From Cryomorphaceae bacterium 1068 (GTDB taxonomy: Bacteria > Bacteroidota > Bacteroidia > Flavobacteriales_D > Cryomorphaceae), in contig JAPVXR010000008.1 in assembly GCA_027214385.1 (NCBI GenBank), positions 1 to 64,000 of the forward strand: a stretch of DNA of 64,000 bases, written 5' to 3'. Under the pieces are notes generated by a model. It saw only the letters and a program-made list of their open reading frames with translations. It had not been told where the DNA came from and ran no database searches. Shown here piece by piece: positions 1 through 6,315 of this stretch. The position numbers and the translations under genes are program-made. The first letter of the stretch is position 1, and each line of letters begins with the position of its first letter.

Positions 1-87
1 GGAATAGATGGATCCGAACATGGAAGTTAATCCGCCTTAGGCGGAGCAGATGGTACTGGTTTTTCCGGGAGAGTATGTCGTCGCCAA
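1..87 (+). rRNA. rrf: 5S ribosomal RNA, 3' part (cut by window edge)
   Basis: The sequence holds the conserved 5S core CCGAACATGGAAGTTAA, a CCGCC/GCGGAG helix, GATGGTACTG, and the closing segment GGGAGAGTATGTCGTCGCCA. The 5' part lies outside the window, so this is the last gene of an rRNA operon entering from the left. The 3' boundary is approximate to within a few bases. A strong terminator follows directly. Confidence 0.93.
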
Positions 88-100
88 TTTTTATTAAAAA

Positions 101-129
101 CCCCGTAGTTTCGACTACGGGGTTTTTTT
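101..129 (+). terminator. Intrinsic terminator of the rRNA operon
   Basis: A perfect 9-bp stem (CCCCGTAGT / ACTACGGGG) closes a TTCG tetraloop and is followed by seven T. It starts about 14 bases after the 5S end, so it terminates the rRNA operon. It is preceded by an A-run, so it may also work weakly on the other strand. Confidence 0.92.
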
Positions 130-152
130 GTGCTTGAAATTTAGGATCCGGA

Positions 153-187
153 GGAATGGATGGAGCCGAACATGGAAGTTATTCCGC
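153..187 (+). pseudogene. 5S rRNA remnant downstream of the rRNA terminator
   Basis: These 35 bases match window positions 1-35 of the 5S gene with 32 identities (differences at 158, 165 and 182). Similarity stops abruptly after CCGC. There is no GATGGTACTG or 3' helix, so this is not a functional 5S gene. It probably remains from duplication or recombination at the end of the rRNA operon. The following stretch up to 444 holds nothing else that I recognise. Confidence 0.75.
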
Positions 188-444
188 AAGGCAGACCCTC
201 ACTTTACTCAGGAGACTGCTGCTTTAGGATATTTACCTATTTTGAGCTTAAGTACTGCAAACCTGCATAGGGAATACAAATTTTTCATGATGGCAATATT
301 GGCTATTAGATTTGATAGCTGAGGCTGAATAGATGCCAAGATGGATCTGCAAGATTTCATGCATTAACATTCCGAGTTTATCCGAATTCATAGCAGAGGG
401 ATCAGCAATATTGAAGGATCCTTCCATATCTTCATCTCAAGCCA

Positions 445-1350
445 ATGAATGATGAAATTAAGATCTACATCTTCTCTGTTCTATTTCTGTTGTCGCTCAA
501 TTTATTTAGCCAAGATCTGTGGCCGCACGAAAATGCAGAGTGGTGGTATCAAATTACCTATTACTTGTTTACTCCTGCTTGGGAACATTCGTACATTGAT
601 GGAGATACTCTTATAGAGGATAAGCTTTGCACAAGGCATACGACTGATAGAATTTACGCCTTTCCAAATTCCCCTGATGATATTCAAGTGCAGTCATCTC
701 GAACGGAGTATATCTATTTTAATGGCGATACACTGTTTTGGAGATATGACAATTCTTTTCTACCTCTAATTTGTTTTAACGCGGAGGTGGGAGACTCGTG
801 GTACCCGCTTCCTGAATCAGATATTGATCCGAGCTGTGAAGTATAACCGATCATGGTTATAGAGGCCGATTCAGTTGAGTACAATGATGAATGGTTCAGA
901 AGAGTGAAAGTGGGGACAACCCGAGAAGAAACAGCACCATTTTTCTGGAGTGGTTACTTCGATGAGCGCACCTTTGGAAGAAGTTTCTTCTACCCGGAGT
1001 TTAATTATTGTGAAGGAATCATAGAATGGATTCAGATGAGCTTTATGTGCTACAATGATAGTGCATTATCCGTTCCGGATACTGATGAACCCTGTGGCTT
1101 CTTTTTGTCTGTTGATAACGAAATCGCAGCCGATGTTAAAGTTTATCCCAACCCAATAGTTCCCGGAGGAACAATAACTGCCGAAGGGGCTAAAGCTATT
1201 TCTCTAATTTCGCTATCGGGTGAAAGACTGCATATCGAAAGTGGAATAAATCAATTCATCATCCCGGATGGGATGGCTCATGGTATTTACCTTATCGAAC
1301 TATCACTGCTCAACGGAGGAGTCTCCTACACGAAACTCTTAGTGAGGTAA
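445..1350 (+). pseudogene. T9SS type A cargo protein interrupted by an in-frame stop
   Basis: One reading frame of 302 codons is broken only by a TAA at 844-846 (codon 134); reading resumes in the same frame. The N-terminus is a signal peptide ending near LFSQ. The middle is a Cys-containing secreted domain (YIDGDTL, FNGDTLFW) that I cannot assign. The C-terminus from about codon 230 (VKVYPNP...) to GVSYTKLLVR is a type A T9SS sorting domain. The first half alone would be secreted without a sorting signal. The second half could start at ATG 853 but would lack a signal peptide. The gene is therefore probably inactivated by a nonsense change, unless the stop is a sequencing error. Function unknown. 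Confidence 0.7.
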
Positions 1351-1383
1351 CTCCCTTGTTGAAATCGAGAGGCAATTATTCTA

Positions 1384-2268
1384 TCATTTATGGGCTTTTT
1401 TTCCAAAGCCATGGAATAATTGACCTCCAAAGGTTTTCGGGAATTCTTCAACCCCGGGGAAACCCAATTTAATCTTTCCATCCTCCGGGTTGGGAATGGA
1501 TGCCGTTCCGAAGATGTAATCCCATAGACTCAAGGAGATTCCATAGTTGATTCCGTTCGGGTGCCCCTCTGGTAAGTGATATACGTGGTGCCAAAGGTGC
1601 ATCACGGGATTATTGAAGATGTACTTCAAAGGTCCATAGGTCAACTTAATGTTTGCATGATTTAAGTGACCGATGGTAATCGCCGCAAAGTGCACAATAT
1701 ATGCCTGCTCAGGTTCAAATCCGCCAAGCAGCATTACCCCCATTGTTTTCAGAGGTTTGTAAAAGATGTTCTCCATCCAGTGATATCTCAAATGAGCGGC
1801 AAATCCCATTTCGGCTACCGAGTGGTGGACTTTGTGGAACTCCCATAGAAATGGGTATCGGTGAAGCAGGATGTGAGTAAACCACTGAACAAAGTCGAGA
1901 ATAACGAAGAAGATGAGGAGTTGCCATACCATGGCTAGTCCGCTCAGATCAATCACGGTTAGCGACTCCATGGTTATGCCAAAATCCGAAAAGACTTTTT
2001 CCAGCATAGAATACACTCCGCTGATGACAATGGCAAAGACAAAAAAGTTGAAGAACATGTAGAAAAAGTCCAGCCAGAAGTCTTTCCGAAATATGCCTTG
2101 AGACTTACGCCATGGGAAGGCTATTTCCAAACCCCATACGACCAGTGAAATCACAATCAGACCCCAGAAGTAATTGGTATACCATGGAACTTGAAAGATA
2201 ATTGAGTTCCACGTCCATTGGGCTGTACCCCAAAATGATTGTATGAAAATGTCTATGTATTCGCTCAT
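1384..2268 (-). CDS. Sterol desaturase / fatty acid hydroxylase superfamily membrane protein
   Basis: This 294-residue integral membrane protein carries the di-iron histidine clusters of the superfamily: HxxxH at 132-136 (HILLH), HxxHH at 145-149 (HKVHH) and HxxHH at 224-228 (HLWHH), with an extra HLNH at 201-204. Hydrophobic segments lie near residues 33-50, 66-90 and 112-130. Family members hydroxylate or desaturate lipids using O2; the substrate cannot be read from sequence. Its ATG overlaps the end of the rhodanese gene by four bases (ATGA), so it is the last gene of the sulfite-oxidase cluster and is probably co-translated with it. A lipid-modifying enzyme in that position is unexpected. 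Confidence 0.88.
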   Translation of the reverse strand: MSEYIDIFIQSFWGTAQWTWNSIIFQVPWYTNYFWGLIVISLVVWGLEIAFPWRKSQGIFRKDFWLDFFYMFFNFFVFAIVISGVYSMLEKVFSDFGITMESLTVIDLSGLAMVWQLLIFFVILDFVQWFTHILLHRYPFLWEFHKVHHSVAEMGFAAHLRYHWMENIFYKPLKTMGVMLLGGFEPEQAYIVHFAAITIGHLNHANIKLTYGPLKYIFNNPVMHLWHHVYHLPEGHPNGINYGISLSLWDYIFGTASIPNPEDGKIKLGFPGVEEFPKTFGGQLFHGFGKKAHK

Positions 2269-3197
2269 AATATTATCCCGTTAGTGCTCTCGCTCACGCT
2301 GTCAGCTGTTGTTTGATTTCTGTATGACCACTCGATCCAAGATCCATCGTAATTGTAAACGTGTTTATAGTTTAATATTTCTCGAAGTACCATCAGCGAA
2401 TGGGCCGATCTAACTCCCGATTGGCAGTAAACCAATATTGTATCATCGGGTTGGGCAAAGTCGGAGTAGACTTTTAAGAGCTCCGCAGGTGGCTTTACTT
2501 TTAAATTTCCTCCCGATGCTGTTTCAACCGTATTGCTGTAACAAATGTTTACGGCTCCGTCGATATGGCCTGCCAAATAGGCTCCATCCTTAATGTATTC
2601 TCCGTTGTACTCAGCGGCCGATCTGCAATCCAATACCTTCACGGCGGGATTTGATCTCATCCTTTCGAACTCATCGTAATTGACAAGCCAATCTTTGGGA
2701 GCCTTTCCTGTGAATTTAAATTCTCGGCTTTCTCTTGGAGTATTTCCAACTTCAAGGTCCTTATCAAATAGATAGAGATCGCCATTAATGATTTTCACTT
2801 TCTCATGGCCATAAACCCTCAAGAGCCACCATAAACGAGATGCCTCGACACCACCTTTTTCATCGTAAAGAATAATCCAATCATCGGTAGAGATGCCTTT
2901 GCTTCCAAGCAACAGAGCTAAACTATCTGCATCCATTGCCATTCCTGAAAATGCTGCATCTTTCTTACGAATGTCACTTCTCGTCAGATTGATCGCTCCG
3001 GGAAGATGTCCTTGATCGTATAATTCACGAGATCTGAGATCTATGTAAACGAATGGCTCCAGCTCCTCGTGACCAGTTGTCCAGGTCTTGGTATCGATCA
3101 AAACAGGATGATCGACATAAGGCCCTGAACTCTCTGAACTGCACGCAGCCAGACCAACCAACAATAAGGCGACTATGGAGAATCTATTCCAAAACAT
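2265..3197 (-). CDS. Two-domain rhodanese (sulfurtransferase) lipoprotein
   Basis: The 310-residue protein begins with a lipoprotein signal (LVGLAAC, Cys19). Two rhodanese domains follow, at about 28-150 and 170-292. The second has the active-site loop CQSGVR with Cys258. The first has YDEKGG in the equivalent place and no cysteine, so it is the structural, inactive half typical of tandem thiosulfate or mercaptopyruvate sulfurtransferases. CRSAAEY at 191-197 is the conserved pre-motif of the second domain. The lipid anchor places the enzyme outside the cytoplasm. It overlaps the cytochrome gene by 14 bases and the hydroxylase gene by 4, in one operon with sulfite oxidase. Sulfite is a product of thiosulfate sulfurtransfer, so the enzyme may feed the oxidase; that link is inference. 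Confidence 0.88.
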   Translation of the reverse strand: MFWNRFSIVALLLVGLAACSSESSGPYVDHPVLIDTKTWTTGHEELEPFVYIDLRSRELYDQGHLPGAINLTRSDIRKKDAAFSGMAMDADSLALLLGSKGISTDDWIILYDEKGGVEASRLWWLLRVYGHEKVKIINGDLYLFDKDLEVGNTPRESREFKFTGKAPKDWLVNYDEFERMRSNPAVKVLDCRSAAEYNGEYIKDGAYLAGHIDGAVNICYSNTVETASGGNLKVKPPAELLKVYSDFAQPDDTILVYCQSGVRSAHSLMVLREILNYKHVYNYDGSWIEWSYRNQTTADSVSESTNGIIL

Positions 3198-3630
3198 ACC
3201 ACTCGTCTTTTTTAAGGTTCAGATTTCTTCTTCTACCCTCATTTTTAGGAGCGTAGTTTTTCGCCAGGTACTCTATTATTTTGGATTCATCTTTCCCGAG
3301 ATCCCAAAGGTTTTGTTTTTCCTGCATCCATTCTATGATGCTCTTCCATCCCGCTGCGGTCTGGCGATTCTGAGTGATCAATTTAGGTGCATGACAGCTG
3401 GTACAGTTGTTCACCACGAGTTCAAAGTTTTGATCGGCGATCAGCCCTGTGGGTGTGTGAATACCATCTACCACCTCACTCATCAACGGTGATGCTTTCA
3501 CCTCTTTAGCTTTAGAAGCTACTTGAGGCAAAGGCTGATCCTCGTCCGCTGTCACAGCAATAATCAATGCTATGACCGTCATCGCGAACATTAGAAAAAT
3601 GAAGTTTTTTGAATGTCTGTCTGCTGTCAT
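3184..3630 (-). CDS. Monohaem cytochrome c, probable electron acceptor of sulfite oxidase (SorB-like)
   Basis: The product has 148 residues if started at ATG 3630, two bases after the oxidase stop. A TTG at 3651 would add seven residues but overlaps the oxidase gene. An N-terminal membrane segment (about 9-27) acts as signal or anchor. One haem-binding motif, CTSCH, lies at 76-80. The C-terminal half is helical and Trp-rich (GWKSIIEWMQ), as in small class I cytochromes. Gene order oxidase-cytochrome matches SorAB-type sulfite dehydrogenases. The likely job is to take electrons from the molybdenum subunit in the periplasm and pass them to the respiratory chain. Its Met haem ligand is not certain from sequence. 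Confidence 0.85.
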   Translation of the reverse strand: MTADRHSKNFIFLMFAMTVIALIIAVTADEDQPLPQVASKAKEVKASPLMSEVVDGIHTPTGLIADQNFELVVNNCTSCHAPKLITQNRQTAAGWKSIIEWMQEKQNLWDLGKDESKIIEYLAKNYAPKNEGRRRNLNLKKDEWYVLE

Positions 3631-3631
3631 G

Positions 3632-4822
3632 TTATTCAACCTTGATGGCAATACGATGTGTCGCGTTGTTCAAGTATCCGCGGGGATTCCACCCCGGAAC
3701 TACCATGGGTTGTGACTTACCGTTTTCGTCAGTCGCTCTCACCCAAATCTCGTAGTAGCCGGGCTCTTTCAACACCACCGATGTATTGAAATCCTGCCAC
3801 GACAATCGATTTATAGGTTCCTTTAAATTCGCGTCTTCCCAAGTTTGACCATAGTCAGTAGAGATTTCTACTTTGGCAACTTTCAGATCTCCTGCCCAGG
3901 CATGTCCACGAACTTTTATTTCCTGTCCGCTTTTAACCATAGCGCCCGTTTTGGGGTAGGTGATTACCGACTTGACAGGCATTGACTCGATGATCATCAT
4001 GTCCTCTTTCGCAACTTCCGTCCCCGGAGCTACAGGATTCTTCGGTACGCTATAAGATGGTGCTTCCATCTTAGGTCCGTCGTGTATCTTATTCCGAACC
4101 ACTAATTTATTCAGCCATTTTCCGCTGACCGAAGCGGGCCAGCCACCCACAACCAATCGGAGAGGATAACCATGTACAATCGGAATCTCTTCACCGTTTA
4201 GCTCAAAGGCGATCAAAGTCTCGTCTTCCATTGCTTTCTCCATCGGCACACCTCTGGAAATCACAACTTTTTTCGGGTCGCCACTCAAGTGCTTGTCCGT
4301 GCCGTAGTAACCGACGTAAACCGCATCATCGCTGATGCCAACATCTTCCAACACGTCCCGCAGCCTTACACCTGTCCACTTTCCGCAATTCACCGCACCG
4401 TAGCTCCATTGATTTCCCGTAGCAGGTGGATTCATTTCGCTTCGGCCATTTCCACCGCATTCCAATACCAATGCATAGGTGTAATGCTTGAACTTGCTTT
4501 TCAATTCGGCCAAAGTGTAGGTTTTCGGATTTGGAACAGATTCACCCTCTATGGTAAGCGTCCATTCCTCAGCATTCAAATCAGTTGGGACAAGTCCGTT
4601 GTTTCGAACGAACATTTTATCTGTCGGGGTGAATGGGTCGTCTAACAGGTGAACAGGCGTTTCGATGTTCCAAGGCCTGTCGTTGTGAACGATCATTTCT
4701 TTGTTCTTCCACTCAGTGGGCGCTTCGTTTACATCGTATTGACTAAACAGCGACTGAGATATCGATATCAACGCCACCATCATCGTGAGGTGAAGAAGAG
4801 ACATACGATTTATGCATTTCAT
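3632..4822 (-). CDS. Sulfite oxidase / molybdopterin-dependent oxidoreductase (SorA-like)
   Basis: The protein has 396 residues from ATG 4822, which gives a good signal peptide (MKCINR start, cleaved after LFSQ); a further 14 in-frame codons lie upstream. The molybdopterin domain includes the molybdenum-ligand cysteine in LECGGNGR (Cys122 in this numbering), the conserved PTDLNAEEW strand region and HGYPLRL. The C-terminal part (KSVITYPKTG to ATDENGKSQP and GWNPRGY) is the Mo-co dimerisation domain. The family oxidises sulfite to sulfate. There is no fused haem domain, so electrons must go to a separate partner, and the cytochrome gene starts two bases after the stop. First gene of the four-gene cluster running down to 1384. 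Confidence 0.9.
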   Translation of the reverse strand: MKCINRMSLLHLTMMVALISISQSLFSQYDVNEAPTEWKNKEMIVHNDRPWNIETPVHLLDDPFTPTDKMFVRNNGLVPTDLNAEEWTLTIEGESVPNPKTYTLAELKSKFKHYTYALVLECGGNGRSEMNPPATGNQWSYGAVNCGKWTGVRLRDVLEDVGISDDAVYVGYYGTDKHLSGDPKKVVISRGVPMEKAMEDETLIAFELNGEEIPIVHGYPLRLVVGGWPASVSGKWLNKLVVRNKIHDGPKMEAPSYSVPKNPVAPGTEVAKEDMMIIESMPVKSVITYPKTGAMVKSGQEIKVRGHAWAGDLKVAKVEISTDYGQTWEDANLKEPINRLSWQDFNTSVVLKEPGYYEIWVRATDENGKSQPMVVPGWNPRGYLNNATHRIAIKVE

Positions 4823-5020
4823 CATGAGCATAAAGTAAAAGGTTAGTTTCCAGAGTGTCTGCAAAACTAGATTTTTCCCTTTGCTCAGAGCGTGACTCCG
4901 GTTACCTAGAACCCAAAATCCCGCGACAATCCGGAGTTTGGAATTTCAATTTTAGAAGAAGTGTTTTTAGCGAAGAAGAGAATTTCGCTTAATTTTGAAG
5001 GTAGACAACGATTTTTTGCG

Positions 5021-5692
5021 ATGAGAGAAATTTTTAAAGATTTGTTTACTCGGATCATTCTTTCCTTTCTTTTGCTGCTTCTCACTTCGCTCCAAGCTAA
5101 GGCGCAAACATACTTTGACGTTCCGGTTCAGTTGGATTATTACCGTACTACCAGTGATGATCTTGATTTTAGCCGAAGAGGAGTGATTATCAATCCTTCT
5201 GTTGGTATTGTAGTGGCAGGCAATGACTCCTCAAGATTTGAAGCCCATGTTGGTATTGGAATATTCTTTAGCAAATTCAATCAAGACGTTGGTGGGAGCA
5301 AATTTGAGTTCAATGCCCTCGGTCCGATTCAAACTTCATTTACAGGGTACTATAATTTCAACAATAGACTTCAGGCAGGACTCGGACTGTGCTTTGGTTG
5401 GTTTGGAGTATATGAGAAGGGTTTAAATATCAATACGGATCCTGAATACCCTGACAGACTAGGAGATGGTTACAAGTCAATAAACTTAGGTAATAGCGTG
5501 GACATTCGATACAATGTCGATAGTAGGCTCTCTCTCGGAGCAAAATATACTTATTGGTATTTACCTCAGTTAGAGTATACCAAGATTGGTGACTATGGAG
5601 AATTTGAGAAACCTCAAAAAGATCTTTATATCACTCGACTTGAGTTTTCCATTAGAGTTTTTGTGACTGATAGAAACTATAACAGAAAATGA
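5021..5692 (+). CDS. Outer-membrane beta-barrel protein
   Basis: I chose ATG 5021 (223 residues) because it gives a clean signal peptide: MREIFKDLF, a Leu-rich core, and cleavage at QAKAQ. An open frame reaches back to 4961. The mature part alternates short aromatic strands with loops (LDYYRTT, VGIGIFF, TGYYNF, LGAKYTYWY) and ends in LEFSIRVFV, as expected for an 8- to 10-stranded outer-membrane barrel. No enzyme motif is visible. It overlaps the following lipoprotein gene by four bases (ATGA), so the two are co-translated and may work together at the outer membrane. Specific function unknown. The 198 bases upstream separate it from the divergent oxidase gene and hold no other gene. Confidence 0.72.
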   Translation: MREIFKDLFTRIILSFLLLLLTSLQAKAQTYFDVPVQLDYYRTTSDDLDFSRRGVIINPSVGIVVAGNDSSRFEAHVGIGIFFSKFNQDVGGSKFEFNALGPIQTSFTGYYNFNNRLQAGLGLCFGWFGVYEKGLNINTDPEYPDRLGDGYKSINLGNSVDIRYNVDSRLSLGAKYTYWYLPQLEYTKIGDYGEFEKPQKDLYITRLEFSIRVFVTDRNYNRK

Positions 5693-6315
5693 ATAGAACA
5701 ATCTTGTTGATATTACTTATTCCGGTATTAAATTCGTGTATCGTCGATGATGAGAGCTCCTTTATAAAAGATCCTTTTGACCCGCGCGTGCCCCAATATT
5801 CTGAAGAGGGAGCAAACACGGCAGGTGCTTATATCGATGATCAAGCATGGTCTGCACGTAAGAGAATAATCAGCAGCATATTTTCTTCTTCTCCCGTTAC
5901 GGTAGGGTCAGTGTCCTTTTATAATTCCGCTGATCCGGACGGAACTTTTATCGCATTTGAAGGAGGTGACCTTTTAATAAATGAATCGAACGTGTCTTGC
6001 AGTGTAGGATTCTTCTTAGCCGAATTTGATTTGAACCAGTTAAATGATTTGCGCCTCTTGGAAAATAAGCGGGTAGAATTAGATGGTGTCGCAAATTATG
6101 GTCAAATGGTTCTTCGAAACGACTTTTCTGCAATAGCTCCAGAAAATGCAGGTGTCGGAACATTCCATATTCGAAGAGTCGCTAAAATACAGAACGGTGA
6201 ATGGGAAATTTCAGGGACCTTCGGCTTTTCGATCAACAGTGAGAATCAAGATGCCAAAGTTTTTTCGGGGAGATTTGACTACGAGGTATCTGATGAGCAG
6301 TTCGGAGAATTCTAA
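5689..6315 (+). CDS. Lipoprotein of unknown function
   Basis: The 208-residue product starts with a short lipoprotein signal (lipobox LNSC, Cys17) followed by acidic residues (IVDDE). Acidic residues just after the lipidated Cys act as a surface-export signal in some Bacteroidota, so exposure on the cell surface is possible. The rest looks like a beta-rich domain (AGAYIDDQAWSA, VELDGVANYGQMVLR, WEISGTFGFSI). That pattern is seen in Bacteroidota lipoproteins of the DUF6252 type, but I am not certain of the assignment. Translation is coupled to the upstream barrel gene. It converges on the gene ending at 6347. Confidence 0.65.
   Translation: MNRTILLILLIPVLNSCIVDDESSFIKDPFDPRVPQYSEEGANTAGAYIDDQAWSARKRIISSIFSSSPVTVGSVSFYNSADPDGTFIAFEGGDLLINESNVSCSVGFFLAEFDLNQLNDLRLLENKRVELDGVANYGQMVLRNDFSAIAPENAGVGTFHIRRVAKIQNGEWEISGTFGFSINSENQDAKVFSGRFDYEVSDEQFGEF

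Follow-up and report, generated by a model that had tools for sequence, protein, structure and literature searches.

An FA_hydroxylase-family protein as a conserved, apparently co-regulated partner in a predicted sulfite-dehydrogenase operon of Cryomorphaceae bacterium 1068 and related Bacteroidota

The closest described systems to the one treated here are the SorAB and SorT sulfite dehydrogenases of Proteobacteria, with a molybdopterin catalytic domain, a dimerisation domain and an adjacent small c-type cytochrome, and the heterotrophic oxidation of sulfide by SQR and persulfide dioxygenase; a third point of comparison is given by OlsE and yeast Scs7p, a ceramide acyl hydroxylase, which have the FA_hydroxylase domain and its histidine boxes. 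A stretch of 64,000 nucleotides from Cryomorphaceae bacterium 1068 (contig JAPVXR010000008.1, positions 1 to 64,000 of the forward strand; the window) carries a pair of the SorAB kind, SOR and CYT, in one unit with a rhodanese gene (RHO) and a gene for a membrane FA_hydroxylase-family protein (FAH). Apparently new is the conserved presence in such an operon of an oxygenase of this family that seems to be regulated together with it. No description of an FA_hydroxylase or sterol desaturase paired with rhodanese, persulfide dioxygenase, sulfite oxidase or sulfite dehydrogenase was found in the open-licence literature, where some searches covered the top-ranked results only. In marine Bacteroidota, it seems, sulfur metabolism includes an enzyme from a family for which no such part is known. 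We give an even chance to the reading that the unit is a sulfite-disposal operon closing a sulfide-oxidation route, with FAH as a regular member that most likely hydroxylates membrane lipid.

By open reading frame and sequence inspection the unit consists of four intact, tightly packed genes in the order SOR-CYT-RHO-FAH, all on the minus strand. SOR (3632..4822, starting at ATG 4822 or ATG 4804 and ending at 3632) encodes a predicted periplasmic molybdopterin-containing catalytic subunit of sulfite dehydrogenase, and its stop is separated by one base from the start of CYT (TAA-C-ATG). CYT (3184..3630), for a single-haem c-type cytochrome with an N-terminal hydrophobic anchor, overlaps by 14 nt the gene for the two-domain rhodanese lipoprotein RHO (2265..3197), an optional member as seen below, which in turn is joined by an ATGA overlap to FAH (1384..2268), a core member with a PF04116 domain and complete histidine boxes. 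A reading made earlier from the sequence alone, here called the sequence-only reading, had described four overlapping or nearly touching genes in one operon, and both this layout and its naming of the families proved right, by Pfam for SOR, RHO and FAH and by the CTSCH motif for CYT.

Of particular weight is the conservation of the unit as viewed from SOR. A close SOR was found in 108 of the 355 genomes sampled from family f17, and since FAH is present in most of the operons inspected, the SOR operon, mostly with FAH, is a widespread feature of marine Flavobacteriaceae-type heterotrophs. Sixty of the 108 genomes, spread down the ranking and with seven already seen left out, were inspected at the locus itself: CYT follows SOR in 60 of 60, FAH lies directly downstream in 51 and RHO is present in 18 (SOR-CYT-FAH in 33, SOR-CYT-RHO-FAH in 18, SOR-CYT in 9). 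FAH, at 51 of 60 versus 18 of 60 for RHO, is therefore the steadier, core partner of SOR, and RHO is optional. This inverts the sequence-only reading, which had taken the hydroxylase for the odd one out beside a periplasmic sulfur route of the other three proteins. Its refuting condition, a hydroxylase gene next to the oxidase in this genome alone, does not hold; what survives of that route is the passage of sulfite through SOR and CYT, with a coupled hydroxylase, and what does not is the rhodanese as an essential member. The four-gene order is conserved in nine of 13 SOR genomes among 60 relatives; in f17, 33 of the 51 operons with FAH have no RHO. Release of sulfite from thiosulfate by the lipoprotein rhodanese, proposed as the main logic of the operon, is weakened by the same rarity of RHO.

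The 13 relatives with a close SOR include the window's own genome (G000). The nine with the complete order are G000, G003, G007, G045, G015, G037, G025, G020 and G011, the last with an FAH at the usual place that is only 39% identical; three others (G049, G019 and G008) have no FAH at that place after SOR, and the locus of G013 is cut by a contig end. In a phylum set of 392 genomes SOR is matched at E <= 1e-40 in 27 and at 59% identity or more in 16; among these 16, FAH adjoins SOR in nine (G000, G015, G160, G191, G239, G361, G447, G121 and G215) and is present away from it in three (G187, G291 and G441). The flanking genes mostly vary between families and the unit itself is constant; because the arrangement recurs in many genomes with mostly different flanks, the grouping is more than chance.

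The view from FAH is similar. An intact close FAH (68% identity or more) occurs in 12 of the 392 phylum genomes, ten of which, all except G088 and G175, have a close SOR (Fisher 2.4e-14, kinship ignored). A scan with 18 aligned FAHs then gave the best 80 of at least 571 confirmed candidates, mostly Flavobacteriaceae; these loci (L numbers) were fetched with flanks of up to 10 kb (about 9.5 kb for the controls), several being cut by contig ends, and their open reading frames were called mechanically, the FAH of L121 being found by tblastn instead. They share species with the 60 f17 loci, and both sets come mostly from one family. SOR lies within the flanks in 47 of these best 80, always on the strand of FAH, and the gap between FAH and the preceding gene of the unit is 50 nt or less in 39 of the 46 loci measured. 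Nineteen more have no SOR, but carry genes for SQR, a persulfide-dioxygenase-like (MBL-rhodanese) fusion, YeeE/YedE or YgaP-TM within 10 kb; TauE is found in ten of the 33 FAH loci without SOR, and also in the operons of family f19. Loci of cultivable strains include L159 of Cellulophaga baltica DSM 24729, arranged as SOR-CYT-FAH, and L132 of Maribacter arcticus DSM 23546, where FAH has SQR and the fusion gene for neighbours but SOR is not close by. As a control we used 37 other FAH matches from the 392 genomes, 45-57% identical, leaving out three long FAHs and a broken one: sulfur genes are near 3 of the 37. These three belong to a single genus and are arranged as TauE-FAH-small membrane gene-rhodanese, SQR being close by.

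The neighbouring families were checked by Pfam and NCBIfam on representatives. The fusion protein has the Lactamase_B and Rhodanese matches, but scores 62.9 against the NCBIfam cut-off of 625 for the known bifunctional enzyme, and the SQR-like protein reaches 235.8 bits against 525 for the type III model, so that the names SQR and persulfide dioxygenase are to be taken as putative, resting on domains and context. The fusion gene was rejected as a mark of FAH genomes: it occurs in 200 of the 392 at E <= 1e-60, and with a gene so common only its closeness to FAH is informative.

In a tree of 120 FAHs, whose bootstrap had not converged, the long forms (G121, G215, G096 and G011; 332 to 400 residues, with an insert between the histidine boxes) fall within a supported branch apart from the main clade, and the f19 proteins (L172-L174) have no settled place. 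G121 and G215 have the order FAH-SOR-CYT with a long FAH, in G011 the long FAH occupies the slot of the usual one, and in G096 it has the MBL-rhodanese fusion on one side and a pair of NrfD/4Fe-4S and molybdoprotein genes on the other. Because the long forms branch apart yet hold comparable places, neighbourhoods of this kind draw on two or more FAH lineages; a third may be that of the f19 proteins.

Two side observations concern FAH relatives. A thirteenth close FAH in the phylum set (G255:C1:306511-307370, L075) is split over two frames, as if decaying, in a genome without a close SOR. Sister FAHs of f17 genera g40, g41 and g67 (51-57% identical; L170, L171, L175, L179, L180 and L194) lie among arsenosugar-biosynthesis genes: ArsM (NF038099) is over its cut-off in L170, L179 and L180, and glycosyltransferases of TIGR04282 or TIGR04283 are over theirs in L175, L179 and L194, with a TIGR04282 match under the cut-off in L171 and L170. 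A limited literature search for arsenosugar genes paired with FAH found nothing relevant.

Many promoters of the FAH and sulfur loci carry an operator of Crp/Fnr type, TGTAACnnnnGTTACA. A gapped-palindrome count in the 80 FAH loci yielded it as GTAAC-n4-GTTAC, present before 29 of 47 SOR genes, 15 of 33 FAH genes without SOR, 16 of 35 persulfide-dioxygenase-like, 11 of 15 SQR and 6 of 13 YeeE genes, and, among the remaining genes of these loci, before 55 of 765; the counts are not independent, divergent neighbours sharing promoter stretches. Exact sites number 149 in the 1.50 Mb of the 80 loci versus 3 in 645 kb of control loci; the 13 FAH loci that lack sulfur genes (264 kb) contain 2, of which one precedes FAH (L119). 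Before SOR, 22 of 31 sites sit 58-87 bases from the start of the gene. The predicted operator of the window (4892..4905, minus strand; GTAAC-n4-GTCAC) lies 83 bases upstream of ATG 4822; it reads GTAACCGGAGTCAC at 4905-4892 and is the only GTRACnnnnGTYAC in the 64 kb, as well as the single match there to the relaxed form GTRACNNNNGTYAC, for which 0.12 were expected. The relaxed form occurs at 13 places in the whole genome, the SOR-operon and SQR promoters among them, and its reversed pattern at 37. The SQR site, GTAACTCAGGTCAC, is 66 bases before the gene, and both promoters have the form GTAAC-n4-GTCAC; one common operator form is what a Crp/Fnr-controlled sulfur regulon would show.

The same variant precedes SOR in both f1 relatives, and the TauE-FAH operons of f19 have an operator at -69/-70. 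SOR operons without FAH in f21 and G235 have none. In the f17 sample the operator is present in 30 of 51 operons with FAH and in 0 of 9 without (Fisher 0.002, kinship ignored). A Crp-like gene is found in the genome's own sulfur island and in 22 of the 80 FAH loci. From its conserved place, its sulfur-gene neighbours and the common operator, FAH looks like a co-regulated component of sulfide and sulfite oxidation, under a putative Crp/Fnr-type regulator. For co-expression with the oxidase, which the sequence-only reading had named as a further check, the operator is evidence of an indirect kind. That the neighbourhood might be inherited linkage without functional meaning is suggested by the origin of most loci in one family, which makes them not independent, but seems very improbable to us: the unit holds where flanks mostly differ between families, f18 has a rearranged order with a different FAH lineage, and the exact operator also stands before FAH genes away from SOR. 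In a separate part of the genome (L207:5748-5818; G000:C5:84247-84317) three operator-like sites in a row lie upstream of an OEP outer-membrane efflux gene, which is followed by an HlyD-type membrane-fusion gene.

The genome of the window carries putative genes for the remainder of a sulfide-to-sulfate route: an SQR-like gene on contig C11, MBL-rhodanese fusion genes on C10 and C9, and YeeE/YedE, TauE and Crp-like genes on C10. Judged from the known families, SQR, fusion and TauE would together with SOR and CYT allow sulfide to pass by way of sulfane sulfur and sulfite to sulfate. SQR would make the sulfane sulfur, a fusion enzyme of the persulfide-dioxygenase type would convert it to sulfite in the cytoplasm, and TauE/SafE would export the sulfite, to be oxidised by SOR in the periplasm with transfer of electrons to the anchored CYT. 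A likely source of sulfite would then be this cytoplasmic branch with export, and not only thiosulfate split by the lipoprotein rhodanese. Once sulfide and sulfite oxidation is on, FAH would hydroxylate membrane lipid on the cytoplasmic face, adapting the membrane that houses SQR and the exporter.

The FAH protein matches FA_hydroxylase (PF04116) at 84.8 bits (cut-off 31), and eleven histidines (H132, H136, H145, H148, H149, H159, H201, H204, H224, H227 and H228) are invariant in an alignment of 48 FAHs. Its score of 89.8 bits is under the cut-off of 475 for the OlsE ornithine-lipid hydroxylase (NF052566). The structure model (pLDDT 88.9) is mostly helical; Foldseek found no match to it at E < 0.001, and VIA-align gave a weak match to yeast Scs7p (Z 6.1, a value under the level that the aligner's notes call a safe match; rmsd 5.4 over 180 aligned residues, 14% identity). 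Lysine and arginine counts (4 in loop 51-63, 8 in 204-294, none in 1-32 and 96-112) suggest that the histidine boxes are on the cytoplasmic face, and by family and predicted topology FAH would be an O2-dependent di-iron oxygenase. The tight operon coupling with CYT could instead point to a membrane di-iron oxidase taking electrons from the cytochrome of SOR, but a predicted cytoplasmic histidine site counts against electron transfer from a predicted periplasmic CYT, and FAH also occurs without SOR and CYT beside SQR and persulfide-dioxygenase-like genes; we think such an oxidase scarcely credible.

With a cytoplasmic histidine site, as predicted, FAH would face the compartment into which sulfite from the fusion enzyme would pass, and separate FAH lineages keep company with genes of sulfite production, export or oxidation (SOR, the persulfide-dioxygenase-like fusion and, in some loci lacking SOR as well as in f19, TauE). 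FAH might, on such grounds, act on sulfur itself, either by hydroxylating the carbon adjacent to the sulfonate of a sulfonolipid or of a sulfite-damaged lipid, so that sulfite leaves, or by oxidising membrane-dissolved sulfane sulfur, the product passing to TauE for export and then to SOR. A sulfonolipid-synthesis gene is common in the class. If true, such a reaction would make FAH a sulfur oxygenase or lipid desulfonase of a new kind. We hold this to be rather unlikely, the sole structural match, weak as it is, being a fatty-acyl hydroxylase; moreover, we know of no FA_hydroxylase with a sulfur substrate.

Also unlikely, in our view, is the sulfonolipid idea of the sequence-only reading, in the form that FAH acts on a sulfonolipid as Scs7p acts on ceramide, hydroxylating its acyl chain, so that the operon would tie sulfite removal to sulfonolipid tailoring. 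The genome does encode a homolog of cysteate-C-fatty acyltransferase (E 3.6e-178 to PDB 28eh), all 12 of the 392 genomes with an intact close FAH have this acyltransferase, and the structural match, at its weak Z of 6.1, is to Scs7p. However, the gene is present in 144 of the 392 phylum genomes and in 95 of the 102 genomes counted as own, same-order or same-class, most of them without this FAH, and it is in none of the 137 FAH loci scanned, which speaks against either form of sulfonolipid chemistry. As a candidate sulfonolipid-specific gene FAH thus gains no support from gene proximity; a sulfonolipid link is possible, and unspecific. On contig C9 of this genome about 3 kb separate the acyltransferase homolog from the second of the MBL-rhodanese fusion genes (G000:C9, L166:3723-9301).

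Returning to sulfite disposal with membrane-lipid hydroxylation, several observations weigh against that interpretation. Sulfite oxidation itself does not need FAH, because in four of the 16 phylum genomes with SOR (G235, G306, G421 and G247) FAH is not matched at E <= 1e-40, and nine of the 60 f17 loci consist of SOR and CYT alone (the rest of those nine genomes was not searched for FAH). Fourteen of the 80 FAH loci are without any of these sulfur genes nearby, although in one of them, L109, the contig breaks off immediately upstream, next to RHO. In the window's own genome the SOR, SQR and fusion genes are on different contigs, and its persulfide-dioxygenase-like, TauE and YeeE genes have no operator within one mismatch. 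Nor was an operator found within one mismatch before the unlinked FAH of G187, G291, G441 and G088, the FAH operons of f18, or SOR of G239, G291, G441 and G011, and it was not found before 21 of the 51 FAH-bearing SOR operons of f17. Finally, HcpR2 and hcp genes are known with the same half-sites (PMC1274295).

The assignment of SOR rests on Oxidored_molyb (PF00174, 170.3 bits) and Mo-co_dimer (PF03404, 76.2 bits), both over cut-off, and on PDB matches to sulfite oxidases and SorA (E 3e-49 to 2e-48). Its LECGGNGRSEM aligns with LQCAGNRRSEM of the sulfite oxidase 2a9d, and contains what we take to be the ligand Cys; with both domains and this region it falls in the SorA/SorT/SoxC superfamily. 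It is under the NCBIfam cut-offs for SorA (NF052245, 254.3 versus 600 bits) and SorT (216 versus 570), and a SoxCD reading was dropped on a SoxC score of 194.5 bits, below 420. CYT has one CTSCH haem motif and an N-terminal anchor; its family matches are weak (Dehyd-heme_bind 20.5 bits, cut-off 25.2) and under the SorB cut-off (NF052246, 26.1 versus 93 bits). Because of these scores under curated equivalog cut-offs, SOR and CYT are best regarded as putative superfamily members rather than as the named types SorA, SorT, SoxC or SorB. CYT is the likely electron acceptor of SOR.

A pattern search for the twin-arginine signal (RRx[FLVMY]) found none in the SOR frame of the window, upstream reading included, and a match in 65 of 71 SOR relatives tested. 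Five relatives (six rows, L016 and L084 being one contig) are also without it, an oddity in a molybdenum enzyme; in L155, which is among the five, KRK stands there instead. RHO matches Rhodanese (PF00581) in two stretches, at 116.6 bits and over cut-off, and sulfurtransferases in PDB (best E 2e-30); its sequence has a LAAC lipobox, a second domain that keeps the active-site loop CQSGVRS and a first domain without that cysteine. PF00581 domains and a cysteine active-site loop together make it a rhodanese.

Elsewhere in the window, two plus-strand open reading frames share one frame at 445-1350, where one in-frame stop codon (844-846) divides them; the second ends in what resembles by eye a secretion-type sorting domain, with no Pfam or NCBIfam match. 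The start of the contig (1-130) looks by eye like the last part of a 5S rRNA gene, with a hairpin and a T-run after it. Rfam at its gathering threshold gave no match there or anywhere in 1-6000, and ARAGORN found no tRNA in the window.

The question raised is what a lipid-hydroxylase-type enzyme does during sulfide oxidation, with membrane protection, lipid desulfonation and a new sulfur oxygenase as candidates, and it is best framed against the known systems. Like SorAB and SorT, the operon pairs its catalytic subunit with a cytochrome; unlike them, it scores under their cut-offs (SorA 254/600, SorT 216/570, SorB 26/93), its SOR in the window is without a twin-arginine motif, and it also has FAH and sometimes RHO. 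What it shares with the heterotrophic SQR/persulfide-dioxygenase sets is the company of Crp-type, SQR-like, MBL-rhodanese fusion, TauE/SafE and YeeE/YedE genes, found both in neighbourhoods of this kind and within its own genome; it differs from them in including an FA_hydroxylase-family protein. That protein resembles Scs7p weakly in structure, and it is set apart from OlsE and Scs7p by its OlsE score (89.8 versus 475), its 14% identity to Scs7p and its sulfur gene context. The operator agrees with the consensus GTAACnnnnGTTAC given for the Crp/Fnr-family regulator HcpR2 in PMC1274295; in that regulon the sites lie ahead of hcp genes, in Bacteroides and elsewhere, whereas here they mark SOR, SQR, persulfide-dioxygenase-like, YeeE, TauE and FAH promoters.

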